Shown here in pieces: positions 7,212 to 35,277 of a stretch of 38,161 nucleotides of DNA. This DNA is from Pseudomonadales bacterium (GTDB taxonomy: Bacteria > Pseudomonadota > Gammaproteobacteria > Pseudomonadales > Azotimanducaceae). The position numbers and the translations under genes were made by a program. Below the pieces are notes generated by a model, which was given only the letters and a program-made list of their open reading frames with translations, had not been told where the DNA came from and did not search any database. The DNA lies in contig JANQMF010000238.1 of NCBI GenBank assembly GCA_028280225.1, positions 1 to 38,161 of the forward strand, given 5' to 3'. The first letter of the stretch is position 1; each line of letters opens with the position of its first letter.

Positions 7212-7217
7212 TATTAT

Positions 7218-8162: not shown

Positions 8163-9350
8163 TCAGTAGGTAATGGCTTGCTCCAGTTTTACCCAACGGC
8201 CATCTTGTACCTGTGAGAGTACAGACTCCGTTGCACCACTATGCTTGTCCGGCCCGAACGAAACCCGGTAGCCAAAAATATCCGTGTACTCGTTAATACT
8301 CTCCATGGCGGTGATCAACCCCTCCGTGGTCAGGTCCGGTCCCGCCCGCCGCAGCGCTTCAACGGTCAGGTCAGCCGCCCGATAACCTTCCATGGCTGCC
8401 AGACCCGGCTCAACATCGTAGCGGGCCACATAGGCATCCCACCAGGCACGTACTTCCGGGCTCATAGGATCATCAGCATAAATTTTGGCCATATGCACAA
8501 AGGAGTAGTAGCCCTGACCACTTTCCTGGTCGGCAATAACCTGGGCATAAGCGGCATTATTTCCCACCCAGGCCACCCCGTCCCAACCCATCTTACGCGC
8601 TGCATCCAGCACCAGAATGGTATCCCGGTGCACTGTGCCCATCAGCATCAGGTCACAGCCGGCATTTTTCAGACGTAAAATAGCTGCGGTAAATTCACTG
8701 TCCGTCGGTTTGTGTGCAGACACCTCACCCAGGGTCAGCCCCATAACTTCCGCCTGATCCCGGGCACCTTCCAAGATCTCAACCCCGTAGTCGGTATCCT
8801 GGTAGATCACACAGGGGGTGGTTTTGCCCTTTTGCTCAACAAAGTACTTAACCGAGGCGCGCACCTCGTCATAGTAAATACCCCGCTGGGTGAATTTCAT
8901 CCTGTGAAAAGGTTCCACCATCTGACGGCCGCCACTGATAGGAAACAGATTCAACACATTGGCCTCAAACAGCACCGGCATAATGGCATTGTTCAGCGGT
9001 GTGCCCACCCCAAGCACTATGGCCAATACATCATCCCGGTTGATCAATTTGTTGGCCGCAGAAATCGCCTTAGGCACCTGATACGAGGTATCTTCCACCA
9101 CATAACGAATTTTGCGCCCGTGCACCCCGCCTTGGGCGTTGACCTCGGCAAACCGCATACGGGCAGCGTTGGTGGCTCCCACACCCCAAACCGCGGTGGG
9201 CCCGGAAAGGTCGGTATATACCCCCAGAACAATCTCACTCTCGGTCACCCCCCGGTTTTTTGTAACCGCACCGGCATCCCCTTCCCCGGTGTCCCCGCAA
9301 CCCGCTGACAATAAAACAAAAAGGGCAATTAACCCTCGGGTGATATTCAT
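8163..9350 (-). CDS. Liv-type ABC substrate-binding lipoprotein
   Basis: Extracytoplasmic solute receptor of the LivK/Peripla_BP_6 type, 395 residues from the ATG at 9350. It has a lipoprotein signal (FVLLSAGC, lipid-modified C18), so it is likely anchored in the periplasm. The mature part begins with the family pattern ESEIVLGVYTDLSGPTAVWG, then MRFAEVNAQGGVHGRKIRYVVEDTSY. The start at 9350 has AAGGAG ten bases upstream; an earlier in-frame start at 9374 would add an unneeded eight residues. It is last in a minus-strand array behind the acyl-CoA ligase and livFGMH. The family binds amino acids, aromatic acids, amides and other small polar compounds, so the ligand is open. Confidence 0.92.
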   Translation of the reverse strand: MNITRGLIALFVLLSAGCGDTGEGDAGAVTKNRGVTESEIVLGVYTDLSGPTAVWGVGATNAARMRFAEVNAQGGVHGRKIRYVVEDTSYQVPKAISAANKLINRDDVLAIVLGVGTPLNNAIMPVLFEANVLNLFPISGGRQMVEPFHRMKFTQRGIYYDEVRASVKYFVEQKGKTTPCVIYQDTDYGVEILEGARDQAEVMGLTLGEVSAHKPTDSEFTAAILRLKNAGCDLMLMGTVHRDTILVLDAARKMGWDGVAWVGNNAAYAQVIADQESGQGYYSFVHMAKIYADDPMSPEVRAWWDAYVARYDVEPGLAAMEGYRAADLTVEALRRAGPDLTTEGLITAMESINEYTDIFGYRVSFGPDKHSGATESVLSQVQDGRWVKLEQAITY

Positions 9351-9401
9351 GTGCACAAATCTCCTTGGCTCCACGGTGCAACGATATCCAAAAATTGGAC
9401 A

Positions 9402-11216
9402 TTAATACATTTCGTTGATCAGATTGGCGTACTTCTGGTTGACCACCTTGCGTTTCAATTTCATTGTTGGCGTCAGCTCTTCGTCTTCAGGGTCCAGCAA
9501 CTGATCAATAAGGCGAAACTTCTTGATGGTCTCAACCCGTGCAAACTTGGTATTCACCCCTTCAATTTCTTCCCAGATCAGATCCTGAACCGGTTGGGCA
9601 TGGCACAGGCTGGTATAGTTGGTAAAGGGGACATTCTTGTCCTGGGCAAACTTCTCCACATTCTCCTGATCGATCATGATCAGACAAGTCAGATAGGGGC
9701 GTTTGTCTCCAACCACAACAGCGTCGGAAATAAAGGGGGAAAATTTGAGCTGATTTTCTATTTCGCTTGGAGTGATATTTTTCCCCCCGGCGGTGATGAT
9801 AATGTCTTTCATGCGATCCACAATGTAGACATAACCGTCGTCGTCTATCCGGCCCACGTCACCGGTGTGTAACCAGCCCTGCACGAAGGTTTCAGCGGTC
9901 TTCTCCGGTTTATTCCAATAGCCCTGAATAACCCCGGGGCCCCGAATAAGAATCTCCTGCTGTTCCGACAGGGTGACTTCCACCCCCTCGTTGGCCCGGC
10001 CCACAGAACCCACACGATTTGCCCCTTCCACATTGGCGGTGGCTATGCCGGAACACTCAGTCTGCCCGTAAACCTCGTACATGGGTTTGCCCAGCGCCCA
10101 GTACCAATCAATCAGGTCCGGAGCAATGGGTGCCGCTGCGGTAGACAGCCACCGGCACCGGTCGATGCCTAAGAGTATGCGAATGTTCTTCAGGACCAGA
10201 AAGTCGGCCAGACGATGTATAACCCTTAACATGAGGGCGGGCCGTTCTCCCACCTTGGTTTTCTCCGCCACCCGGCCGCCAATGCCAATGGCCAGTTTAT
10301 AAGCCCAACGTCCCGGTGCGGTGGCATCCTTAAGTTTGATGTTGATCAGCGAATATTGTTTTTCCCAGATCCGGGGCACGGCAAAGTGAATAGTCGGCGC
10401 AATTTCCTGTTGATCCGCCGTTGCGGTCTCCGCTTCCTCCACCAGATTGACCACCGAGCAGGACTCGATGGTCAAAAAAGTATAAAACATCCGCCCGGCC
10501 ACATGGGCCAGAGGCAAAAACCCCAATTGTTCGTCGTCGGGCCTGACCCCGTAGATCTTTTGCAGATTATCCGCCATAAACAACATGTTAGACTGGCTGA
10601 TCATTGCTCCCTTGGGCGGACCCGTGGTGCCCGAAGTATAGGTCAACACCATCAAGTCCTGCGGCTGAGCTGCCCGAATTTCCCGGTCCCACACATCAGG
10701 GTGAGCCTTATCGTAATCCCTGCCCAGTTCTAAAAGTTCAGCAAAACTCATGCACATCGGATCGGAAAAGTCACGCAAACCTTCCATGTCAAAAATAATG
10801 ACCTTGGCCAGGCTGGGGGTACGGTCGCGCACATTGAGCACCTTGTCCAACTGCTCTTCGTCTTCCGCAAAATAAAACTTCGTGCTGCTGTCCATGATCA
10901 GATATTCAACCTGATTAGCTGCGTCCGTGGGATAAACACCGTTGGTGACCCCCCCAATCCCAATCACCCCTAAATCCGCGAACAGCCACTCTTTGTTCAC
11001 TTCAGAGGCGATGGAACACACATCACCGCGTTGCAGCCCCAGCGACTTCAGCCCACATCCGACATACCGGGCCATTTGCCCATAGTCCCGCCAGGTGTAT
11101 TCATTCCAGATGCCAAAGTCCTTTTCGCGCAGGGCTACCTTATCCGGGAACCGGGTCACCCGGTCCCAAAATAGCTCGCTAATGGTTGTACAGCCGTGTA
11201 CCACAACGTCATTCAT
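9402..11216 (-). CDS. AMP-forming long-chain acyl-CoA ligase
   Basis: Adenylate-forming CoA ligase of 604 residues, converting a carboxylic acid, ATP and CoA to acyl-CoA, AMP and pyrophosphate. The phosphate-binding loop is TYTSGTTGPPKG (about 192-203). The adenine-binding YEVYGQTECSG and the hinge and C-terminal region VDRMKDIIITAGGKNITPSEIEN are intact. The N-terminus (PDKVALREKDFGIWNEYTWRDY) fits the group often found beside Liv-type transporters. It lies between livF (48 bp upstream) and the substrate-binding protein (51 bp downstream), implying that the imported solute is a carboxylic acid trapped as its CoA ester. That role is an inference from context. Confidence 0.93.
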   Translation of the reverse strand: MNDVVVHGCTTISELFWDRVTRFPDKVALREKDFGIWNEYTWRDYGQMARYVGCGLKSLGLQRGDVCSIASEVNKEWLFADLGVIGIGGVTNGVYPTDAANQVEYLIMDSSTKFYFAEDEEQLDKVLNVRDRTPSLAKVIIFDMEGLRDFSDPMCMSFAELLELGRDYDKAHPDVWDREIRAAQPQDLMVLTYTSGTTGPPKGAMISQSNMLFMADNLQKIYGVRPDDEQLGFLPLAHVAGRMFYTFLTIESCSVVNLVEEAETATADQQEIAPTIHFAVPRIWEKQYSLINIKLKDATAPGRWAYKLAIGIGGRVAEKTKVGERPALMLRVIHRLADFLVLKNIRILLGIDRCRWLSTAAAPIAPDLIDWYWALGKPMYEVYGQTECSGIATANVEGANRVGSVGRANEGVEVTLSEQQEILIRGPGVIQGYWNKPEKTAETFVQGWLHTGDVGRIDDDGYVYIVDRMKDIIITAGGKNITPSEIENQLKFSPFISDAVVVGDKRPYLTCLIMIDQENVEKFAQDKNVPFTNYTSLCHAQPVQDLIWEEIEGVNTKFARVETIKKFRLIDQLLDPEDEELTPTMKLKRKVVNQKYANLINEMY

Positions 11217-11264: not shown

Positions 11265-12032
11265 TTATCGCCAGGTTTTACGCTGTTTCCAGCGGCGGCG
11301 GCCACGCACCCCCTGATCCTTCATGCCCAGATAAAATTCCTGGATGTCGGTTGCGTCCCGCAGGCGTTCGCAACTGTCTTCCATAACAATTCGCCCCACC
11401 TCCATAACATAACCGTAGTCACCTACCTCCAACGCCATTTTTGCATTCTGCTCAACCAGTAGCACAGTGACGGCTTGTTCTGTATTCAAGCGCCGGATAA
11501 TTTCCGCAATCTCTTGAACCAGTTTGGGCGACAGCCCCAGGGAAGGTTCATCCAGCAACATCAACCGCGGCCGCAGCATCAGTGCTCTGCCAATCGCCAA
11601 CATCTGCTGTTGCCCGCCGGATAAGTTGACTGCTTGAGATTTAATCAGCGTTTTGAGGACCGGGAAATAGTCGTATACCATCTCAATGTCAGCCTGGATG
11701 TCCCCGTCGTGTCTGGAAAAGGCCCCCATGCGCAAATTTTCGTCAACATTCAGAAAGGGGAAAACCTCTCTGCCTTCCGGTACGTGGGCAATACCCTGCC
11801 GGGCCACCCAATCCGGGTCTTTGCCCTGGATGGCCTCACCTGCATAACTAACCATTCCTTTCTGCGGATCCATGGCGCCACTGATGGTTTTGAGCACGGT
11901 GGTTTTCCCTGCACCGTTGGCCCCCAACAAAGACACAATCTGACCCTCCGCCACCTGCATACTCACGCCGCGGATGGCCATCACCGGACCGTAATAGGTT
12001 TCTATATTTTTAATGTCTAACAGCACCGTCAC
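11265..12032 (-). CDS. livF: Liv-type ABC transporter ATPase LivF
   Basis: One of two cytoplasmic ATPases of the branched-chain amino acid type importer. The 255-residue protein has Walker A GANGAGKTT, signature LSGGQQQM, Walker B LMLLDEPSLGL, and the LivF-style VLLVEQNAKMALEVGDYGYVMEVGRIV ending. The C-terminal tail is unusually basic (VRGRRRWKQRKTWR). The start is GTG, two bases after the livG stop, indicating translational coupling. The symbol reflects transporter architecture, not proven leucine transport. Confidence 0.93.
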   Translation of the reverse strand: MTVLLDIKNIETYYGPVMAIRGVSMQVAEGQIVSLLGANGAGKTTVLKTISGAMDPQKGMVSYAGEAIQGKDPDWVARQGIAHVPEGREVFPFLNVDENLRMGAFSRHDGDIQADIEMVYDYFPVLKTLIKSQAVNLSGGQQQMLAIGRALMLRPRLMLLDEPSLGLSPKLVQEIAEIIRRLNTEQAVTVLLVEQNAKMALEVGDYGYVMEVGRIVMEDSCERLRDATDIQEFYLGMKDQGVRGRRRWKQRKTWR

Positions 12033-12034: not shown

Positions 12035-12793
12035 TCAGTCTCCAAGATAGGCGCGCAGCACCTCGGGATGTGCCTGCACCGCCTGAGGCGCGCCGATAGT
12101 GATAAGTTGCCCGTCCGCCACCGCCATGACCCGGTCGGACGCCTGGCTGACCAGATTCATGTCGTGTTCAACCATAATCACCGTAATTCCCAACTCCTGG
12201 TTGATATCTTCCAGCCAAAAGACCAGATCTTCAGTCTCTTCCGGGTTCAAGCCCGAAGACGGCTCGTCCAGCAACAGCAGTTTTGGCGCCAGGCAAAGGG
12301 CCCGGGCAATTTCAACCATCTTGCGCACCCCATAGGGTAGGTTGGCAATCACCTGCTCCCGGTAACTTTGCAAGTCCAGCAGGTCAATGACATCCTCCAC
12401 CCGCCGTCGAAATTGCAGTTCCTGTTTACGCACCCCGGGAAGAAATAACAACTCGCTGAACAAATTCGTGCGCCGATGGGTATGGCAGCCGATTAACATG
12501 TTGTTCAACACGGTTTCCTGTTCGAACAATTCGGTATTTTGAAAGGTTCTGGCAATACCTAACTGCGCAATTTTGTGGGTGGGTACGGTGGTAATGTCCC
12601 GGCCGTTAAACCACACGCGCCCCCCGGAAACATCGTAGATACGGCTGATGAGGTTAAAGATGGTGGTCTTACCCGCTCCATTGGGTCCCACTATGCTGAA
12701 AACCTCACCCTCTTCTACGGCAAACGATACCTGTTGGACTGCCTTGACACCGCCAAAGTGTACTGAAATCTCCTCAGCCCGGAGCAAGCTCAA
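12035..12793 (-). CDS. livG: Liv-type ABC transporter ATPase LivG
   Basis: Second ATPase of the importer, 252 residues. Walker A is GPNGAGKTT, the ABC signature region is the LivG-like LPYGVRKMVEIARAL, and Walker B is LLLLDEPSSGLNP with the following EHDMNLV switch. LivG proteins characteristically have a Y-G in place of the S-G of LSGGQ, as here. The start is TTG and overlaps the livM stop by four bases (TTGA), so translation is coupled. It forms the heterodimer with LivF under the LivH/LivM pore. Confidence 0.93.
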   Translation of the reverse strand: MSLLRAEEISVHFGGVKAVQQVSFAVEEGEVFSIVGPNGAGKTTIFNLISRIYDVSGGRVWFNGRDITTVPTHKIAQLGIARTFQNTELFEQETVLNNMLIGCHTHRRTNLFSELLFLPGVRKQELQFRRRVEDVIDLLDLQSYREQVIANLPYGVRKMVEIARALCLAPKLLLLDEPSSGLNPEETEDLVFWLEDINQELGITVIMVEHDMNLVSQASDRVMAVADGQLITIGAPQAVQAHPEVLRAYLGD

Positions 12794-13866
12794 TGTAACC
12801 GCTCCGTGCGCAAAAAGGACTTTTGCCGCTTGTAGGTGGATTTTCGATACAACGGGAATTCTTCAAAAAACAGGCGGATCTTCCGCCAACGGCCATAAAT
12901 TCCCAGGGGTTCATAAATCAGGAACAAGATCAATATCAGCCCGAAAACCGCAGGTTCAAGCCCGGGGATTTGTGATATGGCCGGCGGCACGGTATCGCGT
13001 AACAAGGCGATCCCCTGGGGCAACAGACCAATAAAGATGGCCCCGTAAATGACCCCGTGCAGCGAACCCAGCCCGCCGACAACAACCATCAACAACAATT
13101 GGATGGAAGTAATCAGGGTAAAGGCATCCGGTGCCAGGTAGGTCAGCCGGTGGGCAAACAGGGCACCCGCCAGGCCGGTGAAGGCGGCGGAAAGGGCAAA
13201 GGCTAGGGTCTTGGTCCTGGCCAGATGCACCCCCATGCTCTCCGCCGAGGTTTCCGAATCCCGTACCGCGGTCATGGACCGTCCGGTGGGACTGCGCAGA
13301 ATGTTCATGACCAGCAGCATACAGACCAACAATATACCTAGGCACAGGTAGTAAAAGCTGACCGGCTGACCGAGCTGAATACCCAATAGTTGTGGCCGGG
13401 GCACCGCCATGCCGCGAAAGCCTCCGGTCACAGATTCCCAATGTACCAGCACCTGTTCAACAATCACCGCAAATGCCAGTGTCGCCACCGCCAGGTATAT
13501 TCCTGTCATGCGCAACGCGGGAATACCCACCAGACCACCAATCAAGGCGCTGAACAGAGCGGCGCTCAGCATGGCTCCCGGCAGGGGCACACCAAGATTC
13601 AGTAAATAAGCATGGGTATAGGCGCCAATAGCCAGAAAGGCTGCATGGCCCAGACTAACCAGGCCCGTATAACCCACCAGCAACATCAGACCCAGACCCG
13701 CGATGGCATAGATAAAAACCAGGCTGAATTCACCCAGAAGAAACCGGTCCAGCCACAACGGACCGCTGAAGACCAGTGCCAGCAACAAGCCATACCAAAG
13801 CAAGTGGCCGCCGTGTTTTACCAGATTGATGTCTTGTTCGTAGCTGGTTTTTCGAATAAAACGCAT
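12790..13866 (-). CDS. livM: Liv-type ABC permease LivM
   Basis: Inner-membrane permease of 358 residues with about nine hydrophobic segments. The family signature LVGYTGLVSLGHAAFLAIGAYTHAYLL is near the N-terminus, and the EAA-like coupling region is in AVRDSETSAESMGVHLARTKTLAFALSAAFTGLAGAL. The basic C-terminal tail (YRKSTYKRQKSFLRTERLH) is longer than usual. It follows livH by 21 bp and overlaps livG by four bases. It pairs with LivH as the transmembrane pore. Confidence 0.93.
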   Translation of the reverse strand: MRFIRKTSYEQDINLVKHGGHLLWYGLLLALVFSGPLWLDRFLLGEFSLVFIYAIAGLGLMLLVGYTGLVSLGHAAFLAIGAYTHAYLLNLGVPLPGAMLSAALFSALIGGLVGIPALRMTGIYLAVATLAFAVIVEQVLVHWESVTGGFRGMAVPRPQLLGIQLGQPVSFYYLCLGILLVCMLLVMNILRSPTGRSMTAVRDSETSAESMGVHLARTKTLAFALSAAFTGLAGALFAHRLTYLAPDAFTLITSIQLLLMVVVGGLGSLHGVIYGAIFIGLLPQGIALLRDTVPPAISQIPGLEPAVFGLILILFLIYEPLGIYGRWRKIRLFFEEFPLYRKSTYKRQKSFLRTERLH

Positions 13867-13887: not shown

Positions 13888-14757
13888 CTAAACCTTTTTC
13901 TTCTGCATGGTGGCAAACAGGCCTTGGGGACGCACCAGCAGCATGACAAGAAGCAGGACATAGGCGCTCATGTCGGAAAATCCCGGCGGCAAATACAGCC
14001 CGGCAAACTGCTCTACCAGGCCAATTAACAAACCCCCGATGATGGCGCCGGGCATGCTGCCGAAACCACCTACAATGGCCGCGGCAAAAGCCTTTATGCC
14101 AACAAAACCAATAAGCGGATCGACGAGAGAAACCGGCGCTGTGAGAATGCCCGCCACCCCCGCAATGGCGGCAGACAGGGCCCATACCAGAGAATACATG
14201 CGTTTGACAGGTATCCCCACGTAGAACGCCGCCAGTTGATTCTGCGACGCCGCCTGCATGGCGATCCCCAACCGGGAAAAGCGGAAGAACAACCACATAC
14301 ACAGACACAAAACCGCGGTGCCCGCGATGATGGCAATGTTTTCATAGCCAATAACCGCGCTGCCCAGTTCCAATACTTCTCCCACATAGGGTGTGGGCAG
14401 GGCACGGGGTTCGTTTCCCCAGATAGCGCCTGCAATTGCACGCAGGACAAAACCCAGCCCAATGGTCAGCATCAGTACCGCAAAATGCGGTTCGCCAATC
14501 ATTGGCCTGAGCAGCAGCCGCTCAAGCACCACCCCAACCAGCGCCATCACCCCAATAGTTGCCGGCAGCGCCCACCAAAAGGGCCAATCCCAGATACTGA
14601 TAAAGGTAATACCCACATAGGCACCCAGCATCATAATGTCACCCTGGGCGAAGTTGACCATCTCCGTCGCCTTGTAGATCAACACAAAACCTAACGCAAT
14701 CAGGCCATAAACACAGCCTTGGGATACGCCACTAATGATTAGTTGGAATACTTCCAC
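13888..14757 (-). CDS. livH: Liv-type ABC permease LivH
   Basis: First gene of the minus-strand transporter operon, 289 residues with about eight hydrophobic segments. Typical LivH features are the N-terminus SGVSQGCVYGLIALGFVLIYKATEMVNFAQGDIMMLGAY and the C-terminal GIKAFAAAIVGGFGSMPGAIIGGLLIGLVEQFAG. The start codon is GTG (reading GTG GAA GTA TTC). Upstream are AT-rich runs that could hold a -10 element and an inverted repeat at 14796-14820. The operon order livH-livM-livG-livF-ligase-binding protein is uninterrupted. Confidence 0.93.
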   Translation of the reverse strand: MEVFQLIISGVSQGCVYGLIALGFVLIYKATEMVNFAQGDIMMLGAYVGITFISIWDWPFWWALPATIGVMALVGVVLERLLLRPMIGEPHFAVLMLTIGLGFVLRAIAGAIWGNEPRALPTPYVGEVLELGSAVIGYENIAIIAGTAVLCLCMWLFFRFSRLGIAMQAASQNQLAAFYVGIPVKRMYSLVWALSAAIAGVAGILTAPVSLVDPLIGFVGIKAFAAAIVGGFGSMPGAIIGGLLIGLVEQFAGLYLPPGFSDMSAYVLLLVMLLVRPQGLFATMQKKKV

Positions 14758-14820: not shown

Positions 14821-14991
14821 ATCTCTCTCCATTAACTGTCGTATTTTGTGGACTATCTGAACGTTTGTCACCCTATATAAATCCCCCGTCCCGGTGCGGA
14901 TCATAAACCCCGCCGGTGAAAAGCCGACAAAATGGCTTTCGCGCCGACCAGGATTGACTAGACTAGCTGGAATTTCTTCAAGGAGGTCAAC

Positions 14992-15675
14992 ATGGCAAAT
15001 CGATTAACAGGCAAGCGGGTGCTGGTCACCCAGGCCGATGACTTTATGGGACCGGCAACCATGGCGATATTTGCCGCTGAAGGGGCCGACATGCTGGCAG
15101 ACACATCGGACCTGATGACCCCCGGTGCCTGTGAGGCCCTCATTGAAAAGAGTGGTCATGTGGATGTGCTGATTGCAAACTTAGCCACACCCAACTTCTC
15201 CGGGATTGCCGCCACCAACCTGCCCGATGACGCCTGGCATCAGGTTTTTGACGGCATGGTCCATCCGCTGCACCGGCTATGCCGGGCGGTATTACCACAG
15301 ATGCAGGCCCGCAGGGCGGGGAAAATAGTAGTGTACGGCAGCGCCACCGCACTGAAAGGCTTAAAAACCCTGTGTGCGTACAGTGCCGCCCGCGCCGCCC
15401 AGGTGGGTTACGTGCAATCCCTGGGGGTGGAAGTCGCCCCCGATAACATTCAGGTTAATTTAATTGCACAAAACTATGTGCAAAACCCGGTGTATTACCC
15501 GCCCGAACTTCAGGCCAAGGCATCCTTTCAAAAATCTCTGCAACGCCAGGTGCCCCTGGGCCGGTTAGGCACCGCTGAAGAGGATGCAAAATTTGCCCTG
15601 TTCTTGGCCTCGGATGAAAGTGACTTCTTTGTGGGCCAGGCCATTCCCTTTTGTGGGGGGTGGGTGCAGCGTTGA
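14992..15675 (+). CDS. halohydrin dehalogenase (SDR-derived)
   Basis: Looks like a short-chain dehydrogenase at first sight but lacks the NAD(P)-binding TGxxxGxG. In its place is T13-QADD-F18-M-G20, exactly the T-X4-F/Y-X-G motif of halohydrin dehalogenases. The triad is S117, Y130, R134, exactly S-X12-Y-X3-R, with arginine instead of the SDR lysine. These enzymes remove halide from vicinal halohydrins to give epoxides and can open epoxides with azide, cyanide or nitrite, without a nucleotide cofactor. Length (227) fits the family, and the segment QNYVQNPVYYPPE resembles the halide-site region of known members. The ATG has an optimal AAGGAGG upstream. It is divergent from the liv operon and convergent with the methyltransferase gene. 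I could not assign a subfamily. Confidence 0.87.
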   Translation: MANRLTGKRVLVTQADDFMGPATMAIFAAEGADMLADTSDLMTPGACEALIEKSGHVDVLIANLATPNFSGIAATNLPDDAWHQVFDGMVHPLHRLCRAVLPQMQARRAGKIVVYGSATALKGLKTLCAYSAARAAQVGYVQSLGVEVAPDNIQVNLIAQNYVQNPVYYPPELQAKASFQKSLQRQVPLGRLGTAEEDAKFALFLASDESDFFVGQAIPFCGGWVQR

Positions 15676-19867: not shown

Positions 19868-20293
19868 ATGAAATATTTACACACCATGGTTCGGGTGACG
19901 GATATTGACCGTTCCCTGGACTTTTATTGCAACGCCCTGGGTTTAACTGAACTGCGCCGTTACGAAAACGAAGCCGGCAGATTCACACTGGTCTTCCTGG
20001 CGGCCCCCGGTGACGAAACCGCCCAGGTAGAGCTTACCTACAATTGGGATCCGGACCCGCAACCCTTATCTGGTGGCCGAAACTTTGGCCATCTGGCTTA
20101 TCAGGTGGACAATATTTATGCCACCTGCACCCAGCTGAGCGAACACGGGGTCACCATCAATCGGCCGCCCAGAGACGGCCGCATGGCCTTTGTCCGTTCC
20201 CCGGATGGCATCTCTGTCGAAATACTGCAAAGTGGGGAAGCCCTGCCGCCGGCTGAACCCTGGCAGAGTATGGAAAACATCGGAGATTGGTAA
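19868..20293 (+). CDS. gloA: glyoxalase I (lactoylglutathione lyase)
   Basis: Isomerises the hemithioacetal of methylglyoxal and glutathione to S-lactoylglutathione in the cytoplasm. The 141-residue length is typical. All four metal ligands are seen: H5 (KYLHTMVRV), E55 (QVELTYNW), H75 (GHLAYQV) and E118 (ISVEIL). The sequence FYCNALGLTELRRYENEAGRFTLVFL matches the Ni-dependent bacterial class (short, without the long insert of the Zn class). The start has a strong AGGAGG at 19858. A glutathione S-transferase follows 58 bp later, so the two probably form a glutathione-based detoxification unit. Confidence 0.94.
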   Translation: MKYLHTMVRVTDIDRSLDFYCNALGLTELRRYENEAGRFTLVFLAAPGDETAQVELTYNWDPDPQPLSGGRNFGHLAYQVDNIYATCTQLSEHGVTINRPPRDGRMAFVRSPDGISVEILQSGEALPPAEPWQSMENIGDW

Positions 20294-20351: not shown

Positions 20352-20966
20352 ATGAAACTGTATAACTCTATTGGACCCAACCCCCATGTGGTACGCATGT
20401 TTGCCGCGGAAAAAGGTCTGAATCTGGCGCTTGAGGATATCGACATAATGGCCGGCGCTAATCGTCAGGATGACTACCTGAAAATTAACCCCGCCGGGCA
20501 ACTGCCCTGCCTGGAACTGGAGGATGGCACGCGTATTTCCGAAATCACCGCCATCTGCGAATATCTGGACGAAGTCGGGGATGGTCCTTCTCTGGTTGGT
20601 GAGACCGCCGCGGAGCGTGGCGTCACCCGCATGTGGACCCGCCGCGTGGACCTCAACATTTGTGAACCCATGGCCAACGGCTTTCGTTACAGTGAAGGCC
20701 TGCCGATCTTCAAAGACCGCATGATTACACTTCCGGAAGCCGCGGAAGGTCTAAAAAGCATTGCCAGGGAAAAAATTGCCTGGCTGGACGGTCTGATGGC
20801 GGATGGCCGGCAATTTATTGCGGGGGACAAAATCACGCTGGCGGATGTGCTGCTGTTTTGCATCGTTAATTTTGGCAATGCCGTGGGTCAGCCCTTTGAT
20901 GAAAACCTGGCCCACTTTAAAGCCTGGTTTGAGCGCATGCAGGCACGCCCGTCAGCCACGGCATAA
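20352..20966 (+). CDS. glutathione S-transferase family protein
   Basis: A 204-residue cytosolic GST. The N-terminal thioredoxin-like domain contains the glutathione site cis-proline motif GQLPCLELEDG and the following RISEITAICEYLDE (the usual E-S/T pair becomes S-E-I). The helical C-terminal domain begins near residue 85 and contains FIAGDKITLADVLLFCIV, the conserved folding motif. The usual catalytic Ser/Cys/Tyr near the N-terminus would be in YNSIGPNPHVVRM. Start supported by GAGGAAAACC upstream. Substrates are unknown. Confidence 0.92.
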   Translation: MKLYNSIGPNPHVVRMFAAEKGLNLALEDIDIMAGANRQDDYLKINPAGQLPCLELEDGTRISEITAICEYLDEVGDGPSLVGETAAERGVTRMWTRRVDLNICEPMANGFRYSEGLPIFKDRMITLPEAAEGLKSIAREKIAWLDGLMADGRQFIAGDKITLADVLLFCIVNFGNAVGQPFDENLAHFKAWFERMQARPSATA

Positions 20967-21262: not shown

Positions 21263-22477
21263 ATGCGCAAAACCTACATTACAGCAGGCATTATTGCGGT
21301 TGCCTTAGCCGCCTGGTTACTTTCCGGGCAACTCGGCAAAGACAAGACTCCTCCCCCACAGACCCTTGCTGACATCAAGCGCCAGCAGCAACAGATTCAG
21401 GCTGAACAGGCCCCCACCCGGGTGCGGGTGGCGGTCATTCAGGCTTCTGAGCAAAACCGTTACGTTAAGGTGCGGGGGAAAACCGAAAATAAGCGTACCG
21501 TGGACGTCAAGGTTGAACTGGCCGGGCGTATTGTTAAACGCCCGGTGGAACGGGGTAGCCGGGTGGCGGAGAACGCAATCCTTTGTCAGATCTCTTTAGA
21601 AGACCGGCGCGTGGCCCTGGCCGAAGCCAATGCCGCTTTAAATCAGGCAAAAATTGAATACCAGGGTGCTTTAAGTCTGAAGGAACGGGGATTTAACTCA
21701 CAAACCGCCATTGCCGGCGCCAAGGCCCGCCTGGCTGCAGCCGAAGCTGAAGTCAGCCGGCGTAAACTGGACTTGGCCAAGGTCCACGTGCGCGCGCCCT
21801 TTGGCGGCATTGTTGAAGAAGTCCACCAGGAGGTAGGCGACTACGTAACTCCGGGGCAAAGCTGTGCCACGGTTGTGGACTTAGATCCCATGTTGTTACG
21901 CGGCCGGGTTACGGAACAGGAAGTGATTCATCTCATGCCGGGGACCATTGCCCAGGGACATCTCAGCAACGGCCTGGTCGTGGCGGGACCGCTGACCTTT
22001 ATCGGTCAGCAGAGTGATCCCAACACCCGTACCTACCCGGTGGAAATTGAGCTGCCCAACGGCAAACACCTGCTGCGCTCGGGTATTACCACGGAAATCC
22101 GCATTCCCGTGGAAAACGTCCTGGCCCAGAAAATCAGCCCGGCGTTATTTGCCCTGGATGACAATGGCGGTATTGGCGTGCGTACCGTAAACGCGGACAA
22201 CATTGTGGAATTTCATTCGGTCAACATTCTCTCCGACGACGAAGACGGGGTATGGGTCACCGGCTTGCCCAACCGGGCCGGGGTGATCACCGTTGGCCAG
22301 GAACTTGTTACCGCGGGGGAACGCGTGGATCCCATTTTCCAGAGCAGTCCAAACATGCCCGCCCAGAACAAACAAAGAGGTGACACTCAGGAGGCCCCTC
22401 CGGCACCAAGAACGCTGCCTAATTCCAGCGGTCTGTCCGGAAATCTGGGGGCCAACGTGGGGGCTCGGCCCCGCTAA
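21263..22477 (+). CDS. RND efflux periplasmic adaptor subunit
   Basis: Membrane-fusion protein of 404 residues linking an inner-membrane RND pump to an outer-membrane channel. An N-terminal membrane anchor (ITAGIIAVALAAWLLSG) is followed by a beta-barrel/lipoyl region (VDVKVELAGRIVKRPVERGSRV), a helical hairpin (ALAEANAALNQAKIEYQGAL to AAEAEVSRRKLDLAKVHVRAPFGGIVEEV) and a beta-barrel domain. The C-terminal 45 residues are proline- and asparagine-rich and low in complexity, an unusual tail. The pump gene follows 23 bp later. No outer-membrane factor is present, so a shared TolC-like protein is presumably used. Confidence 0.92.
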   Translation: MRKTYITAGIIAVALAAWLLSGQLGKDKTPPPQTLADIKRQQQQIQAEQAPTRVRVAVIQASEQNRYVKVRGKTENKRTVDVKVELAGRIVKRPVERGSRVAENAILCQISLEDRRVALAEANAALNQAKIEYQGALSLKERGFNSQTAIAGAKARLAAAEAEVSRRKLDLAKVHVRAPFGGIVEEVHQEVGDYVTPGQSCATVVDLDPMLLRGRVTEQEVIHLMPGTIAQGHLSNGLVVAGPLTFIGQQSDPNTRTYPVEIELPNGKHLLRSGITTEIRIPVENVLAQKISPALFALDDNGGIGVRTVNADNIVEFHSVNILSDDEDGVWVTGLPNRAGVITVGQELVTAGERVDPIFQSSPNMPAQNKQRGDTQEAPPAPRTLPNSSGLSGNLGANVGARPR

Positions 22478-22500
22478 CCCCGCCATCACCGACCCAGCCC

Positions 22501-25500
22501 ATGTACGCCTTTATCGAAGCCGCCATCAGCCGAACCCGCACCACCCTGCTGATTATGCTGATGGTGGTCATTGCCGGTCTTATTGCCCGGGCGCAAATAC
22601 CCGTGGCCAACGATCCGGACATCGACGTACCGTTTTTTGTGGTCACCGTAGTCCATGAGGGGATTTCTCCCGAAGACGCCGAGCGCCTTTTAGCCATGCC
22701 CTTGGAAACCGAGGTGCGCAATGTTGAAGGCATTGAGGAGATGACCACCTTTGCCTCGGAAGGCGCCGCCACCCTCATGGTTGAATTTGACGCAGACCAG
22801 GATTTAAACAAGGCACTGATCGACATCCGCGAGGCGGTAGACCGCGCCAAGGCTGAGTTCCCTTCAACCGCGGAGGAACCCATTGTCCAGGAGGCCAGCG
22901 TTGCCGACTTTCCCATATTGCAGATCAATCTGGTGGGTGATGTCCCCGAGCGCATGCTCTACAACATTGCCCTGGACCTGCAGGAAAAAATTGAAGGCCT
23001 GGCTGAAGTCTTGTCAGCAGATATGTTTGGTCACCGCGAGGAAATGCTGGAGGCGGTGATTGACCCCAATCAGCTTGAGGCCTACCAGATCTCATCCGAG
23101 GAGCTCTTAAACACCATTGTCAGAAACAATCGCCTCATTCCCGCGGGCAGCCTGGACAATGGTGAAGGGCGGTTTTCGGTAAAAGTCCCCAGCATCATCG
23201 AACAGGCCAACGACGTATTTGACCTGCCGGTCCGGGCTGATGGAGACACTGTAGTCACATTAAAAGACGTGGCCACCATTCGCCGTACCTTTAAAGATCG
23301 CACCTCGTATGCCAGGGTAAACGGACGGCCCACGATATCCCTGCAACTGGTCAAACGCTCAAATGCCAACATCCTCAGCACCATTGCCGCCGCCAAGGCG
23401 GCGGTAGATGAATATCGTCCGCAATTGCCGGGCCGGGTAGATATCTTTTATACCTCCGACCAGGCACCCTTTGCCCAGGGCCAGGTTACCGAATTGCAAG
23501 GCAACATATTCACCGCGCTTGGCCTGGTGATGGTTGTAGTGGTTGCCGCCATGGGATTTCGCAGCGGTATTATCGTGGGCCTGGGCATCCCCATTTCATT
23601 TCTGTTTTCCCTGATATTTGTCTACCTGCTGGGGTATACCTTCAACTTCATGGTCATGTTCGGCATGTTGTTGGGGCTGGGTATGCTCATCGACGGCGCC
23701 ATTGTGGTCACCGAATATGCGGACCGGAAGATGGTTGAAGGATACCAGCGCCGGTCCGCCTATATCCTGGCTTCCCGGCGCATGTTCTGGCCGGTCACCG
23801 CCTCCATTGCAACCACCCTGGCAGCTTTTTTGCCGCTGATGTTCTGGCCCGGGGTACCCGGTAAATTTATGCGTTATCTGCCGGTGACGGTATTTACCGT
23901 GTTGTCCGGCTCGCTGTTGTACGCTCTGATCTTCGGTCCTGTTTTGGGCACTCTGTTCGGCAAAGCCGGCAGCCGGGACACAAAGTCCATGGACACCCTG
24001 AAACAACTTGAAGAAGGTGATCCGACAAGCCTCAACTCCATTACCGGCTGGTACGCGCGGCTGTTATACGTTGCTACCCGCTACGCTTCGGTCACTCTGC
24101 TGATCACCTTCACCATTTTATTTGCCACTGTGTGGGCCTATGGCAAATATGGCGCCGGGTTTATGTTCTTCTCTGCGTCTGAACCAAAGTATGCGGAAAT
24201 TGCCGTCCGCGCCCGGGGTAATCTCAGCGTGGAGGAGATTAATACCCTGGTCACGGAAATTGAGCGCGAAGTATTGGAGGTGGAAGGCATCCAGTCCGTC
24301 AATTCCGCCACCCAGCTATCCGGCAAACCCTCCCGCAACGGGGGCATGGACCGCATTGGACAGATGTTTCTTGAACTGCACGACGAAGACCTGCGTGAGC
24401 AGTCCGCCACCGAGATCTTTGAAGCCATTCGGCAGCGCACCCGGGACTACGCCGGGGTTGCCGTGGAAATCGAAAAACTGGAACAAGGCCCACCCACCGG
24501 CAAACCCATTGTCCTGGAGTTCAGCTCGCATAATCGCACACTGTTAGAACCCGCGGTCACTCGAGTGGTGGAATATATGCAGGAAGGCATGGAGGGTCTG
24601 CGCGATATCGACGATACGCGTTCGCTTCCGGGGGTGGAATGGAAACTCACCGTTGATCGCGCTCAGGCCGCAATCTACGGTGCTGATGTCAGCCAGGTTG
24701 GCATAGCGGTACAACTGATCACCAATGGTGTGAAGGTGGGTGAGTACCGGCCCGACCGGGCAGATGACGGGGTGGATATCCGGGTACGTTACCCGGCTGA
24801 ATATCGCGGCATTAATGCCCTGGACGAACTTAAAATCGCCACCGCAAACGGGCTGGTACCCATTTCCAATTTTGTGTCTAAGTCTCCCGCCGCAAATGTC
24901 GACACCATCCAGCGCAACAACGGCATCCCGGTTGAACAAATCCTGGCTAACGTGGCGCCGGGTATTTTGGCGGACAACAAGGTTACGGAACTCAAAACAT
25001 GGTTGGATAGCCAGAATTGGCATCCCGACCTGACCATAAAGTTCCGCGGCGCCAACGAAGAACAGGCTGAATCCATGAGCTTCGTTTTTGTTGCCTTTGG
25101 CCTCAGCCTGCTGCTGATGTTTGTACTGCTGGTCACCCAGTTTAACAGTTTTTACCAAAGCGGATTAATCCTGTTTGCGGTGGTCCTGTCCACGGCGGGT
25201 GTTCTGCTGGGTCTGCTCATCACCGGCAACCCGTTCAGCGCGGTATTGACCGGGGTTGGGGTGGTTGCCCTGGCCGGGATTGTAGTCAACAACAATATTG
25301 TGCTGATCGATACCTACAATCACCTGCGCCGGGAACACCCGGACCTGGACTATCTGGAGCTGATTGTCCGCACCGGTGCCCAGCGGTTGCGGCCGGTCAT
25401 GTTGACCACCATCACCACGGTGTTTGGTTTATTGCCCCTGGCCAGCAATTTCAGTATCGACCTGGTTAACCGGAACATCGTTTACGGTGGAATGTTATCT

Positions 25501-25680
25501 TCCTTTTGGGTCCCCCTTTCCCAGGCTATTGTCTCCGGGCTGACGTTCTCCACCCTGCTGACCCTGGTTACCACACCAGCCATGTTAGGTTTACGCCACC
25601 AGGCCGGTACCCTGGTAGACAAATACATTCGCAACCGGAAACCGCAGTCGCCGCCCGCCAAAGCCGCAAGGCAAACCTGA
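22501..25680 (+). CDS. RND efflux permease (HAE-1-like)
   Basis: Inner-membrane proton-driven efflux pump of 1059 residues with the two repeated halves and large periplasmic loops of the AcrB superfamily. TM4 carries GMLIDGAIVVTEYADRKM: one proton-relay aspartate (D398) is kept, but the second of the AcrB Asp pair is glycine. In TM10 the AcrB lysine region reads GIVVNNNIVLID (N930-932). These changes are common in a branch of environmental RND pumps. It forms an operon with the adaptor. Substrates are not predictable; the nearby PEP-utilising enzyme and detoxification genes only hint at a xenobiotic role. Confidence 0.94.
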   Translation: MYAFIEAAISRTRTTLLIMLMVVIAGLIARAQIPVANDPDIDVPFFVVTVVHEGISPEDAERLLAMPLETEVRNVEGIEEMTTFASEGAATLMVEFDADQDLNKALIDIREAVDRAKAEFPSTAEEPIVQEASVADFPILQINLVGDVPERMLYNIALDLQEKIEGLAEVLSADMFGHREEMLEAVIDPNQLEAYQISSEELLNTIVRNNRLIPAGSLDNGEGRFSVKVPSIIEQANDVFDLPVRADGDTVVTLKDVATIRRTFKDRTSYARVNGRPTISLQLVKRSNANILSTIAAAKAAVDEYRPQLPGRVDIFYTSDQAPFAQGQVTELQGNIFTALGLVMVVVVAAMGFRSGIIVGLGIPISFLFSLIFVYLLGYTFNFMVMFGMLLGLGMLIDGAIVVTEYADRKMVEGYQRRSAYILASRRMFWPVTASIATTLAAFLPLMFWPGVPGKFMRYLPVTVFTVLSGSLLYALIFGPVLGTLFGKAGSRDTKSMDTLKQLEEGDPTSLNSITGWYARLLYVATRYASVTLLITFTILFATVWAYGKYGAGFMFFSASEPKYAEIAVRARGNLSVEEINTLVTEIEREVLEVEGIQSVNSATQLSGKPSRNGGMDRIGQMFLELHDEDLREQSATEIFEAIRQRTRDYAGVAVEIEKLEQGPPTGKPIVLEFSSHNRTLLEPAVTRVVEYMQEGMEGLRDIDDTRSLPGVEWKLTVDRAQAAIYGADVSQVGIAVQLITNGVKVGEYRPDRADDGVDIRVRYPAEYRGINALDELKIATANGLVPISNFVSKSPAANVDTIQRNNGIPVEQILANVAPGILADNKVTELKTWLDSQNWHPDLTIKFRGANEEQAESMSFVFVAFGLSLLLMFVLLVTQFNSFYQSGLILFAVVLSTAGVLLGLLITGNPFSAVLTGVGVVALAGIVVNNNIVLIDTYNHLRREHPDLDYLELIVRTGAQRLRPVMLTTITTVFGLLPLASNFSIDLVNRNIVYGGMLSSFWVPLSQAIVSGLTFSTLLTLVTTPAMLGLRHQAGTLVDKYIRNRKPQSPPAKAARQT

Positions 25681-31330: not shown

Positions 31331-32104
31331 ATGTCTGAACCCTTTGATCTCTCCGGCAAGGTCATTGCCATTAGCGGCGCATCTTCAGGTTTTGGCCGCC
31401 ACTTTGGCGGGGTGCTCGCCCAAGCCGGCGCTACCGTCGTCCTGGGCGCCCGCCGCAAAGATAAGTTGGCGGAGCGGGTCAGCGAAATTCAGGCCCAGGG
31501 CGGTAAGGCCATGGCCATGCCGCTGGATGTGCGGGAAAAGTCCAGCATAACCGGGTTTATCGACACAATTTACAGCGAGTTTGGCCAGCTTGATGTGATC
31601 GTGAACAACGCCGGGGTAGAAGCAGGCGCCAAAACCTACACGATGATTGATGAGCAGGATTGGGACTACGTCCTGGATACCAACCTGAAGAGCGCGTGGA
31701 TAATCTCCAAATACTATACTGAACAGGTGGTTGCCCATAATCAGGGCAGCGGCAATATCATCATGATCTCCTCCATCACAGACACGCGCACCATCAAGGG
31801 ACAATTTCCATACGCGGTTTCAAAGGGGGCGCTGTCAAGAATGACTCAGGTCATGGCTTTAGAAGCAGCCCGCTATAATATTCGGGTGAATGCTCTGGCC
31901 CCGGGTTATATCCTCACCGATGTCAGCCGAATTTTACTGGAAAGTGATCTGGCCCCTGAGTTTGTCAAAGGTATCCCCATGCGGCGCTTTGGCGAATTTG
32001 ACGATCTGGATGGTCCCATTCTCCTGCTGGCCAGCAACGCATCAAAATATATGACCGGCTCCATCCTGACCGTTGACGGTGGGCATGTGTGCGGGTCTTT
32101 GTGA
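31331..32104 (+). CDS. SDR family oxidoreductase
   Basis: A canonical 257-residue NAD(P)(H)-dependent short-chain dehydrogenase/reductase. It has the glycine motif SGASSGFGRHFG (16-26), NNAGV (92-96) and the triad S148, Y161, K165 (YAVSK). This contrasts with the altered motifs of the dehalogenase at 14992. It is followed 33 bp later by an epoxide hydrolase and then acetoacetyl-CoA synthetase on the same strand, likely one operon. Its substrate may be a secondary alcohol or 3-hydroxyacyl compound, not determinable from sequence. Confidence 0.93.
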   Translation: MSEPFDLSGKVIAISGASSGFGRHFGGVLAQAGATVVLGARRKDKLAERVSEIQAQGGKAMAMPLDVREKSSITGFIDTIYSEFGQLDVIVNNAGVEAGAKTYTMIDEQDWDYVLDTNLKSAWIISKYYTEQVVAHNQGSGNIIMISSITDTRTIKGQFPYAVSKGALSRMTQVMALEAARYNIRVNALAPGYILTDVSRILLESDLAPEFVKGIPMRRFGEFDDLDGPILLLASNASKYMTGSILTVDGGHVCGSL

Positions 32105-32137: not shown

Positions 32138-33277
32138 ATGACGGATATTAGGGCATTTGAAATCAGCATCAGCGACAACACCATTAGTGATTTGCGGCGG
32201 CGTCTGAGTGCCACGCGCTGGCCCGAGGCAGAAACCCCGCAGGACTGGAGCCAGGGTATTCCGCTTGCCTACACCCAGGAAATTGTCTCCTACTGGGAGA
32301 ACCAATACGATATGCAGCGCCTGGCGACACGCCTGAACGCCTACCCTAATTTTGTCACCAATATTGACGGGCTGGATATCCACTTTATGCATGTCCGATC
32401 CAGCCATGCCCAGGCCAAACCCCTGATTCTCACCCACGGGTGGCCTGGCTCCGTGGTGGAGTTTTTAAAGGTTATCGATGCACTGACCGAACCCGAACGC
32501 TACGGCGGCACCACTTCCGACGCTTTCCATCTGGTGATACCTTCGTTGCCGGGATTTGGCTTTTCCGGAAAACCAACAACCACGGGATGGGGGGTGGAGA
32601 AGATCGGCAAGGCCTGGGCCAACCTTATGACCCGCCTGGGTTACCCCCAGTATCTCGCCCAGGGTGGAGATTGGGGGGCCATCGTCACCACGGCCATCGG
32701 CAGATCGGACCCGGACAACTGCAAGGCGATTCACCTCAATATGGTTATCAGCCCCCCGGACCCAAACGCCCCGGATCTTACGGACGGGGAAAAATCCGGC
32801 CTGGCCGGCCTGCAACACTACAACGACTGGGACTCCGGTTATGCCAAGCAGCAGAGTACCCGTCCCCAGACCCTGGGTTATGCTCTGGTTGATTCCCCCG
32901 CCGGGCAAGCCGCCTGGATACTCGAGAAATTCTGGTCCTGGATGGACTGCCAGGGTAACCCGGAAAATATCCTGACCAAGGACGAGTTGCTGGACAATGT
33001 CATGGTCTACTGGGTTAACGCAGCTGCGGCATCATCAGCAAGAATCTACTGGGAAAGTTTTGGTTCCGCCATGGCCGGCCAACAGGTGACGGTCCCCACC
33101 GGGGGAACAATTTTTCCCAAGGAAATATTCCGTACCAGCCGCAGATTCGCCGAAAACGTCTACCCAAACATTATCTACTGGTCGGAACAGGACCAGGGCG
33201 GACACTTTGCCGCTTTTGAGCAACCGGAAGTTTTTGTCGGCGAGGTGCGCAACTGCTTCCGGCAAATTACGGTCTAG
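32138..33277 (+). CDS. epoxide hydrolase
   Basis: A 379-residue alpha/beta hydrolase with the N-terminal epoxide hydrolase domain (FEISISDNTISDLRRRLSATRWPE, about 7-30). The oxyanion motif is HGWPGS (100-105), the nucleophile D178 is in GGDWGA and the base is probably H356 in QGGHFAAFEQPE. Family members open epoxides to vicinal diols, without cofactors, in the cytoplasm. The start has a good GAGGAGAG. The lid-domain tyrosines are probably present but I did not place them. A halohydrin dehalogenase 17 kb away would provide an epoxide source, an inference. Confidence 0.93.
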   Translation: MTDIRAFEISISDNTISDLRRRLSATRWPEAETPQDWSQGIPLAYTQEIVSYWENQYDMQRLATRLNAYPNFVTNIDGLDIHFMHVRSSHAQAKPLILTHGWPGSVVEFLKVIDALTEPERYGGTTSDAFHLVIPSLPGFGFSGKPTTTGWGVEKIGKAWANLMTRLGYPQYLAQGGDWGAIVTTAIGRSDPDNCKAIHLNMVISPPDPNAPDLTDGEKSGLAGLQHYNDWDSGYAKQQSTRPQTLGYALVDSPAGQAAWILEKFWSWMDCQGNPENILTKDELLDNVMVYWVNAAAASSARIYWESFGSAMAGQQVTVPTGGTIFPKEIFRTSRRFAENVYPNIIYWSEQDQGGHFAAFEQPEVFVGEVRNCFRQITV

Positions 33278-33285: not shown

Positions 33286-35277
33286 GTGAATCAACTGATC
33301 TGGCGGCCGGATGCCAAGGCGATTCAAAACAGTCAGCTTACGGCATTCAGCCGCGGGGTAGATGCGCAGCACAACATTGGCCTGGACGGCGACCCGGCAG
33401 AAGACTACGCCAAACTCCATGCCTGGAGTACCCAATACCCGGGAGAATTCTGGCAAGCGTTCTGGACCTTCACCGGGATCCGCGCTGAACAGGCCTCTGA
33501 AGAGGTTGTACTTGACCCGGATAAATTTCCCGGTGCCCGGTGGTTTCCACAAGCGCGCTTGAATTACGCTGAAAACCTGCTCAGCGAACCCGGTGACAAA
33601 ACCGCCTTTATATCCATGCTTGAGAATGGTCATCGGGAAACCCATAGCTACGCGGATATTTACCGGCAGACCGAACGGATTGCCTGGCAGCTGTGTAAAC
33701 TGGGTATAAGCCCGGGTGACCGGGTGGCCGGCTGGCTGCCGAATATTGTCCCAACGGCCACCACAATGCTGGCATCTTCCAGTATCGGGGCGGTATATTC
33801 CTCCTGTTCCCCGGATTTTGGGGAACCCGGTGCCCTCGACCGCTTTGGCCAGATTGAACCCAAGGTGCTGTTCGCTTGTGACGGGTACTTCTATGCCGGC
33901 AAAACCATCAGCATCCGCGACAAAGTCCGGCGCGTGGCCGGGCAGGTGCCCTCCATCCACACCATCGTCTGGGTCGGCGTGCCGGGCCTGCCCGAGCCTG
34001 TGGATCCATCACCGGATAACACTATGCAGGAAGTAAGCCTGCAAGATTGGTTAAACCAACCGGCGGAGCCCCTGACCTTTACCCAGCTTCCATTTGACCA
34101 CCCCCTGTATATCCTGTACTCCAGCGGCACCACCGGCAAACCCAAGTGTATTGTCCATGGCCAGGGCGGCACCCTGATGCAGCACAAAAAGGAACATCAG
34201 CTTCACCTGGATCTTCGCGCTGACGATACCCTGTTCTTTTTCACCACCTGTGGCTGGATGATGTGGAACTGGTTGATCAGCGCGCTGGCCAGCCATTGTA
34301 CTGTGGTCTTGTTTGACGGCTCCCCCTTTCATCCTACCCCCTCAGCCATGTTTGACCTGTGTCAGGCAGAGCAAGTGGATATATTCGGCATCAGCGCCAA
34401 GTTCTTGAGCGGGGCTCACAAGGCCGGGATTAAACCCCGGGAAACACACAACCTGAGCCGCATGCGCATGCTCATCAGCACCGGCTCACCCCTCACCCAG
34501 GAGGGTTTCCAATATGTCTATCGCGATATTGATCCCAATTGCCACTTAGTATCCATGTCGGGAGGTACCGATCTTATTTCCTGTTTTATGCTGGGTAATC
34601 CAAACCTGCCCGTCTACGACGGTGAACTGCAATGTGCCGGTCTGGGCATGGCGGTGGATATCTGGGACGAGCAGGGTAACAGTGTCATCAATGAGAAAGG
34701 CGAACTGGTGTGTACCACGGCCTTCCCAAGCGCCCCGGTGGGCTTCTGGAACGACCCTGATAACAAAAAGTATCACGGGGCTTACTTCGAACAGTACCCC
34801 AACGTGTGGGTCCACGGTGACTATGCCGAAAAAACCGCAAATGGCGGCTATATCATCCACGGGCGCAGTGACGCTGTTTTAAATCCCGGCGGGGTTCGCA
34901 TTGGCACCGCGGAAATATACCGCCAGGTGGAAAACTTCGCCGAAGTGGCAGATGCCGTTTGTATTGGTCAGGAATGGGAGGACGACGTTCGTGTTGTGCT
35001 TTTTGTTGTAATGCAGGCAGGCGCGCGATTCAGCACCACACTGGCTGATGCCATAAAGTTGAGAATCAGGAATTTTGCCTCCCCCAGACATACCCCCGCG
35101 CTGATCCTGGAGGTGGATGATATTCCCAGGACCATGAGCGGAAAAATTGCTGAACTGGCTGTTAGAGATGTGGTCCACAACCGCCCGGTAAAAAATACCT
35201 CCGCTCTGGCTAATCCAGAGGCATTGGAGAACTTTCGCCATTTACCGGCCTTACAAGTCCCCGGCGGGCACCCTTAG
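33286..35277 (+). CDS. acetoacetyl-CoA synthetase
   Basis: Activates acetoacetate to acetoacetyl-CoA with ATP in the cytoplasm; 663 residues, as expected for AacS. The phosphate-binding loop is LYSSGTTGKPKC (277-288), and the signature GWMMWNWLISAL follows in the expected place. The C-terminal lysine region is RTMSGKIAELAVRDVVHNRPVKNTSALANPEAL. Start is GTG, eight bases after the epoxide hydrolase stop, so translational coupling is likely. It converges with the formamidase-like gene and their stops overlap by 4 bp. It may feed acetoacetyl-CoA to a thiolase such as the one at 4005. Confidence 0.94.
   Translation: MNQLIWRPDAKAIQNSQLTAFSRGVDAQHNIGLDGDPAEDYAKLHAWSTQYPGEFWQAFWTFTGIRAEQASEEVVLDPDKFPGARWFPQARLNYAENLLSEPGDKTAFISMLENGHRETHSYADIYRQTERIAWQLCKLGISPGDRVAGWLPNIVPTATTMLASSSIGAVYSSCSPDFGEPGALDRFGQIEPKVLFACDGYFYAGKTISIRDKVRRVAGQVPSIHTIVWVGVPGLPEPVDPSPDNTMQEVSLQDWLNQPAEPLTFTQLPFDHPLYILYSSGTTGKPKCIVHGQGGTLMQHKKEHQLHLDLRADDTLFFFTTCGWMMWNWLISALASHCTVVLFDGSPFHPTPSAMFDLCQAEQVDIFGISAKFLSGAHKAGIKPRETHNLSRMRMLISTGSPLTQEGFQYVYRDIDPNCHLVSMSGGTDLISCFMLGNPNLPVYDGELQCAGLGMAVDIWDEQGNSVINEKGELVCTTAFPSAPVGFWNDPDNKKYHGAYFEQYPNVWVHGDYAEKTANGGYIIHGRSDAVLNPGGVRIGTAEIYRQVENFAEVADAVCIGQEWEDDVRVVLFVVMQAGARFSTTLADAIKLRIRNFASPRHTPALILEVDDIPRTMSGKIAELAVRDVVHNRPVKNTSALANPEALENFRHLPALQVPGGHP

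Follow-up and report, generated by a model that had tools for sequence, protein, structure and literature searches.

A predicted halohydrin dehalogenase found in most genomes of one bacterial genus and linked to epoxide hydrolase and acyl-CoA ligase genes

Results

The gene at 14992..15675 (+) of the window, by which we mean the whole 38,161-nucleotide stretch of DNA analysed here, encodes a protein of 227 amino acids whose sequence, fold and position in phylogenetic trees support its assignment as a halohydrin dehalogenase (HHDH), against a generic SDR. Judged from these comparisons, it is a new member of an already known family, whose enzymes remove halogens from small alcohols and thereby form epoxides. 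What is new is the presence of the gene in most genomes of one genus and its linkage, in 21 of 81 loci, to a gene for an EHN-type epoxide hydrolase. The linkage of HHDH to this gene and to that of an acyl-CoA ligase is shown to be conserved. No published account of this locus was found among the titles and abstracts listed in searches on halohydrin dehalogenases.

The open reading frame runs exactly from 14992 to 15675 (+), starts with ATG and is preceded, five bases ahead, by AGGAGG. The assembled genome contains one copy of the gene, and a search of that genome with the HHDH returned the protein itself (E-value 7.5e-152) and a runner-up of SDR type (1.3e-22). The original prediction held that the SDR cofactor motif TGxxxGxG is replaced by T-X4-F-X-G and that the catalytic triad reads S-X12-Y-X3-R, and both matches are exact. 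The first motif is TQADDFMG (T13-QADD-F18-M-G20, residues 13-20; 15028..15051, +) and the second is S117-x12-Y130-x3-R134 (15340..15393, +), in which Arg replaces the SDR Lys; each occurs once in the protein. That the two together form the published HHDH signature, in which motif 1 may have F or Y (T-X4-F/Y-X-G), agrees with the definitions given in two papers (PMC4989007, PMC11976700). When the protein was shuffled 200,000 times, the pair arose at a spacing of 80-140 residues in 17 cases; of the 101 open frames of at least 100 aa in the window, one has it, which is the HHDH.

Both motifs are present in 79 of 81 loci, a sample made up of the window and the best 80 of at least 487 relatives. 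The two exceptions are L091, where Ser replaces Thr in motif 1 within a stretch containing unread bases, and L098, where the N-terminus is lost at a contig end. The family had been described as small, a description weakened by the at least 487 relative-encoding stretches that tblastn returned at an E-value of 1e-3. Comparison with the nearest relative, L028, indicates purifying selection (dN 0.118, dS 1.52); dS was saturated in the comparisons with the other three relatives. Pfam places the protein in SDR families alone, with adh_short_C2 above its cut-off, and the 25 NCBIfam models listed, out of 182 matched, all stayed below their cut-offs, so that annotation as a generic SDR, as was predicted, is likely. 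A relative on a plasmid, 56% identical, is indeed named 'SDR family oxidoreductase'.

Alignment with eight SDRs from its own genome shows that the protein lacks four features of the cofactor site: TGxxxGxG and the triad Lys, by which classical NAD(P)-dependent SDRs are recognised, together with NNAG and the nicotinamide-loop PG. By these residues, the NAD(P) binding site appears to have been lost. The HHDH has ANLA at the NNAG position, Arg at the triad Lys and AQN at the PG, whereas the eight SDRs keep Lys and PG without exception, an exact TGxxx[GA]xG in five cases and NNAG in five. The loop IAQNY (residues 158-162; 15463..15477, +), which takes the position of this PG, can be aligned with the corresponding loop in HheB and the HheD enzymes; its AQN is identical in HheD2 and HheD8, and HheB has AQH. 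IAQN with Y, F or W as the next residue was found at every one of the 81 loci in the sample of the window and the best 80 of at least 487 relatives.

A sequence search of the PDB retrieved HheB (4e-73), 7b73 (2e-70) and 8xxb (1e-69), then 6a41, titled a 'dehalogenase' (1e-35), with the top NAD-dependent SDR (8xwk) at 1.4e-26 and the top FabG at 2e-23. The best hits, all HHDHs, thus have E-values over 40 orders of magnitude better than the best SDR, and identity to the nearest solved structures (HheB, HheD2 and HheD8) is 50-53%. The structure was modelled from 51 aligned sequences, the relatives among them being 50 of the 80 loci, and the model reached a pLDDT of 90.9. In a fold search with this model, chains of HheD2, HheB or HheD8 took ranks 1-9 (TM 0.89-0.92 by query length) and 6a41, 'Dehalogenation enzyme', took rank 10; SDRs have this fold too but score lower. 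In a tree of 96 rows, from which the truncated L098 was left out, the protein fell with HheB, HheD2 and HheD8 into a group of 87 rows (100/100), with the eight SDRs of its own genome outside. The clustering with NAD(P)-dependent SDRs that the original prediction had named as contrary evidence was not seen in this tree, and the sequence and fold searches concur.

An ordinary NAD(P)-dependent SDR carrying the motif pair by chance would likewise be placed in the superfamily by Pfam and NCBIfam and would have the common fold. FabG-type and KDF-dehydrogenase SDRs (1q7b, 8y11) do have the Rossmann fold and Ser-Tyr in common with the HHDH, although they differ in being cofactor-dependent and are only 25-34% identical in the fold-search rows. 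We regard this explanation as exceedingly improbable and reject it, given the loss of the four cofactor-site features, the separation of the protein from SDRs in the 96-row tree, and PDB E-values that place HHDHs first.

The subtype was addressed with a tree of 48 rows, without SDRs, that took in 38 of the 80 loci. This tree separates the D-type (8 rows) from the rest (40 rows) with 100/100 support and leaves the window protein outside the group of HheD2 and HheD8, so D-type membership was rejected. HheD2 (7b73) and HheD8 (8xxb), 51% and 52% identical to the window protein, share both motifs with it and appear alongside HheB in the first nine fold ranks, yet they form this D-type group of their own. 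Because the 48-row tree splits it from the D-type, the protein is read as an HHDH of the HheB side of the family, which may be of subtype B or E. E-type HHDHs come from marine Gammaproteobacteria. HheB of Corynebacterium sp. N-1074 (4zd6, 5b12) is 52% identical to the window protein, has the same length, carries both motifs and an aligned pocket loop, and stands on the same side of the tree. It differs in belonging to a separate subgroup of nine rows (99/93) with Halieaceae and Rhodobiaceae rows, whereas the window protein belongs to a group of 27 rows (93/83) in which no enzyme has a solved structure. The triad and the motif pair are also present in HheC of Agrobacterium radiobacter AD1 (1pwx; PMC11976700), an enzyme of the A/C side. 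HheC fell outside the 87-row HHDH group of the 96-row tree on a very long branch, which makes its placement unsure.

The near neighbours of HHDH are transporter, methyltransferase and Rrf2 genes. Divergent from it on the minus strand lies a LIV-type ABC transporter operon, identified by Pfam, NCBIfam and comparison of loci, that comprises, in order away from HHDH, a LivH-like permease (13888..14757), a LivM-like permease (12790..13866), LivG-like (12035..12793) and LivF-like (11265..12032) ATPases, a FadD11-like AMP-binding acyl-CoA ligase (9402..11216, below its NCBIfam cut-off) and a periplasmic binding protein of LIV-type transporters (8163..9374). At 6474-8156, a gene with an AIR-carboxylase domain adjoins a NAD-synthase/QueC-like gene, a pair that we take to resemble LarB and LarE of nickel-pincer cofactor synthesis. 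On the plus strand, HHDH is followed by genes for a VOC/glyoxalase-like protein (19868..20293), a glutathione S-transferase (GST; 20352..20966) and, as two genes, an HlyD-type adaptor with an RND efflux pump (21263..25680). Further downstream on the same strand are an ordinary SDR oxidoreductase (31331..32104), the EHN-type epoxide hydrolase (32138..33277) and an acetoacetate-CoA ligase above its NCBIfam cut-off (33286..35277). The hydrolase was recognised by Pfam EHN and matches the crystallised 5f4z with an E-value of 2.5e-116; the match to the EHN epoxide hydrolases 5f4z and 4i19 is near full-length and includes HGWPG and GGD. The order SDR, EHN, acetoacetate-CoA ligase (31331-35277) recurs at L119 and L120 and may represent a pathway ending in acetoacetate. 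In the window, EHN is 16.5 kb from HHDH and the two do not share an operon. The original placing of the gene among SDR-like genes is weakened by the Pfam scan of 30 window proteins, in which the SDR ahead of EHN is the only other SDR.

The 234-bp divergent gap between LivH and HHDH contains a 30-bp element, TATTnTGTGGAC-N10-TTTGTCAC (14842..14871, no strand assigned). Allowing up to four mismatches, it has six sites in 1.35 Mb of loci, every one of them upstream of HHDH where the LIV operon is present; shuffled versions of 40 loci contained no site. It was spotted by eye in the same sequences that were used for its count. We infer a candidate promoter or operator, and the minus-strand sequence is reminiscent of a sigma-70 promoter that would point to the LIV operon. 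Descent may partly account for it, because all six element-bearing loci are close kin and ten of the 16 ligase-bearing loci are without it.

Linkage was examined at the same 81 loci, the window and the best 80 of at least 487 relatives, many of which have short contigs or flanks. Genes were called with a custom ORF script and neighbours labelled by BLAST to Pfam-identified reference genes, with identity cut-offs set by hand. HHDH clustered with its family in 67 of 81 loci at the first gene calling; a second pass forced inclusion, and even then the copy at L072 stayed outside the identity cluster. EHN at 50% identity or more is present in the flank of the 21 loci, always downstream and on the same strand, and within 600 bp in six; it is absent from the fetched flank, in many cases a short one, of the other 60. 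Among loci with at least 8 kb downstream, the count is 19 of 57. The FadD11-like ligase of the LIV operon, at 45% identity or more, occurs at 16 loci, always upstream and divergent (15 of the 58 having at least 7 kb upstream), and is absent from the fetched flanks, again many of them short, of 65. The ligase-linked loci include L101 and L104 from Rhizobiaceae. A search of 20 genomes chosen out of the 81 loci, a choice that leans towards transporter-bearing loci, found the ligase (E 1e-60) in 16, and at about 20 kb or less from HHDH in 14 of these 16; at the same threshold it was not found in the genomes of L039, L050, L058 and L061. Within the genus of the window, EHN was matched (E 1e-100) in 34 of 35 genomes with HHDH, at just 56-59% identity in G007, G014 and G036, and 22 genomes have both genes on one contig, 7.4-26.3 kb apart. 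Shared descent alone may suffice to explain neighbours that are common to one genus.

VOC, GST and HlyD genes accompany HHDH at 27, 28 and 28 of the 81 loci, in every case downstream and in the same orientation; at 12 loci VOC is no more than 600 bp from HHDH, and RND follows HHDH at 23. Three of the ligase-less genomes (L039, L050, L058) still have the VOC-GST-HlyD-RND right flank. These genes would be expected if HHDH, VOC, GST, RND and EHN served to handle toxic halohydrins and epoxides, with no gain of carbon. GST also adjoins HHDH at five loci of alphaproteobacterial MAGs (L082, L090, L092, L094 and L096), where TauD-GST-HHDH-OGT (an O6-methylguanine methyltransferase domain) forms a second conserved context, and another GST lies just upstream of HHDH at L054. 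Two of the six D-type loci examined carry a VOC-like gene close to HHDH: at L128 (39%) it immediately precedes HHDH, and at L130 (40%) the distance is about 1.8 kb. The natural role is presumed to be detoxification and degradation of haloalcohols in a 2024 paper (PMC11536340). Against detoxification without catabolism, the complete VOC-GST-HlyD-RND set is confined to the window and its closer relatives (L028-L065, L080), so shared descent could account for it, and ligase, importer, enoyl-CoA hydratase and acyl-CoA dehydrogenase genes beside HHDH elsewhere suggest degradation. We consider detoxification as the sole role somewhat doubtful.

Other lineages present further contexts. At L078, L086 and L087 the order LivK-ligase-LivFGMH-ECH is divergent from HHDH-EHN-PPOX, followed by TauD and an acyl-CoA dehydrogenase, and the order at L107 resembles it. 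At L101 (Pararhizobium) and L104 (the cultured Flavimaribacter sediminis WL0058), the LIV transporter with its ligase and an acyl-CoA dehydrogenase are beside HHDH, with two zinc-type alcohol dehydrogenases between HHDH and these conserved neighbours at L101. The ligase link at these two loci is suggestive only, because a second ligase in each genome is almost equally similar (49-51%, against 51-52% for the linked ligase). No EHN match was obtained at an E-value of 1e-40 in the genomes of L101, L102 (the cultured Nitratireductor sp. XY-223) and L104. Two genomes, those of L085 and L089, have an LIV-ligase operon that faces EHN without an intervening HHDH (L116, L117), and HHDH is far off. The D-type loci examined (18.7-19.9 kb), which cover six of seven D-type genomes, the L111 contig being left out, gave an EHN or ligase match in none of the six. 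A gene for an HpaB-type flavin hydroxylase is directly downstream of HHDH at eight of the 81 loci (for example 9176-10579 of L028). Neighbours at other loci are unlike these, such as Glu cyclotransferase, Sir2, a sodium symporter and nitrile hydratase, and several loci have none of the linked genes.

HHDH was found in 35 of 40 genomes of the window's genus (E 1e-60), and in 21 of 21 of those with a completeness of 90% or more and a contamination of 5% or less. It is scarce in wider samples: four of 368 other genomes of the class had a match (E 1e-30; L108-L111), all D-type, and four of 397 genomes of the phylum sample, three D-type and one a weak 39% match with an internal stop. Only one of 72,556 plasmid records had a match (E 1e-25), the 56% identical relative whose annotated feature was cited above, and spread on known plasmids was rejected on this basis. 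Among the matches listed, most of the named relatives are MAGs under the titles Gammaproteobacteria or Pseudomonadales, the K189A and OM182 clades among them, with others from Rhodobiaceae, Nitratireductor, Pararhizobium and Flavimaribacter. One HHDH of the same clade (L073) comes from a MAG contig under the title Klebsiella pneumoniae, probably through mislabelling or misbinning, and the same may apply to L098, titled Poribacteria.

Discussion

HHDHs are in industrial use, and their natural role is in question. We believe that the protein is probably a cofactor-free HHDH of the HheB side, forming an epoxide that EHN would convert to a diol, which would then enter CoA-dependent degradation. 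The chemistry is inferred from homology, and the direction and order of the steps are likewise a proposal. In the HHDH family, Ser positions the hydroxyl, Tyr takes the proton, Arg lowers the pKa of Tyr, and a halide pocket stands in place of the cofactor site, as described in a 2016 review (PMC4989007). By analogy, Ser117 would position a vicinal haloalcohol and Tyr130, its pKa lowered by Arg134, would take the proton; the alkoxide would then displace the halide into the pocket of the lost NAD(P) site, giving the epoxide. Hydrolysis to the diol by the EHN-type enzyme encoded in the same region could pull the reversible HHDH step forward, and the carbon might then pass into CoA-dependent degradation.

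It is also conceivable that the natural reaction is something other than dehalogenation, for example the opening of an epoxide by another anion or some other cofactor-free step, with dehalogenation as a side activity. The 2016 review allows for further physiological functions, and notes that HHDHs accept many anions (PMC4989007). At L070, the gene immediately after HHDH (11050-12012) encodes a nitrile hydratase alpha chain, which could fit a hydroxynitrile product of the kind that HHDHs can form from epoxides and cyanide, and no other dehalogenase was recognised in the Pfam scan of 30 window proteins. However, the catalytic triad and pocket loop are kept as in HheB, HheD2 and HheD8, and a nearby epoxide hydrolase fits an epoxide product. 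We therefore think a different natural reaction quite unlikely.

Returning to dehalogenation followed by epoxide hydrolysis, the neighbouring genes hint at what the pathway may serve. The LIV-type importer and the ligase, together with the enoyl-CoA hydratase and the acyl-CoA dehydrogenase, point to the uptake and degradation of an organic acid, and a protective role is suggested by the efflux pump, the GST and the VOC protein; the two are compatible and do not exclude each other. We tentatively propose, with less confidence than for the reaction itself, that HHDH belongs to the standing core metabolism of one Pseudomonadales genus and of scattered Alphaproteobacteria, as the entry step of an importer-ligase-HHDH-EHN-beta-oxidation route for natural marine halohydrins or epoxy acids. 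The order Pseudomonadales and the sea habitat of the genus are judged from the record titles of its members. If this proposal is true, HHDH would not be a rare acquisition for degrading industrial chemicals.

According to the 2016 review, an epoxide hydrolase gene stood in the same operon as HHDH in only two known cases (PMC4989007). The EHN, importer and ligase genes near HHDH are a clue to the natural role of the family, and the group to which the window protein belongs has no solved structure in the 48-row tree. Linkage to EHN in one clade, together with presence in most genomes of a genus, turns the question of that role into a testable pathway with a short list of candidate partners.
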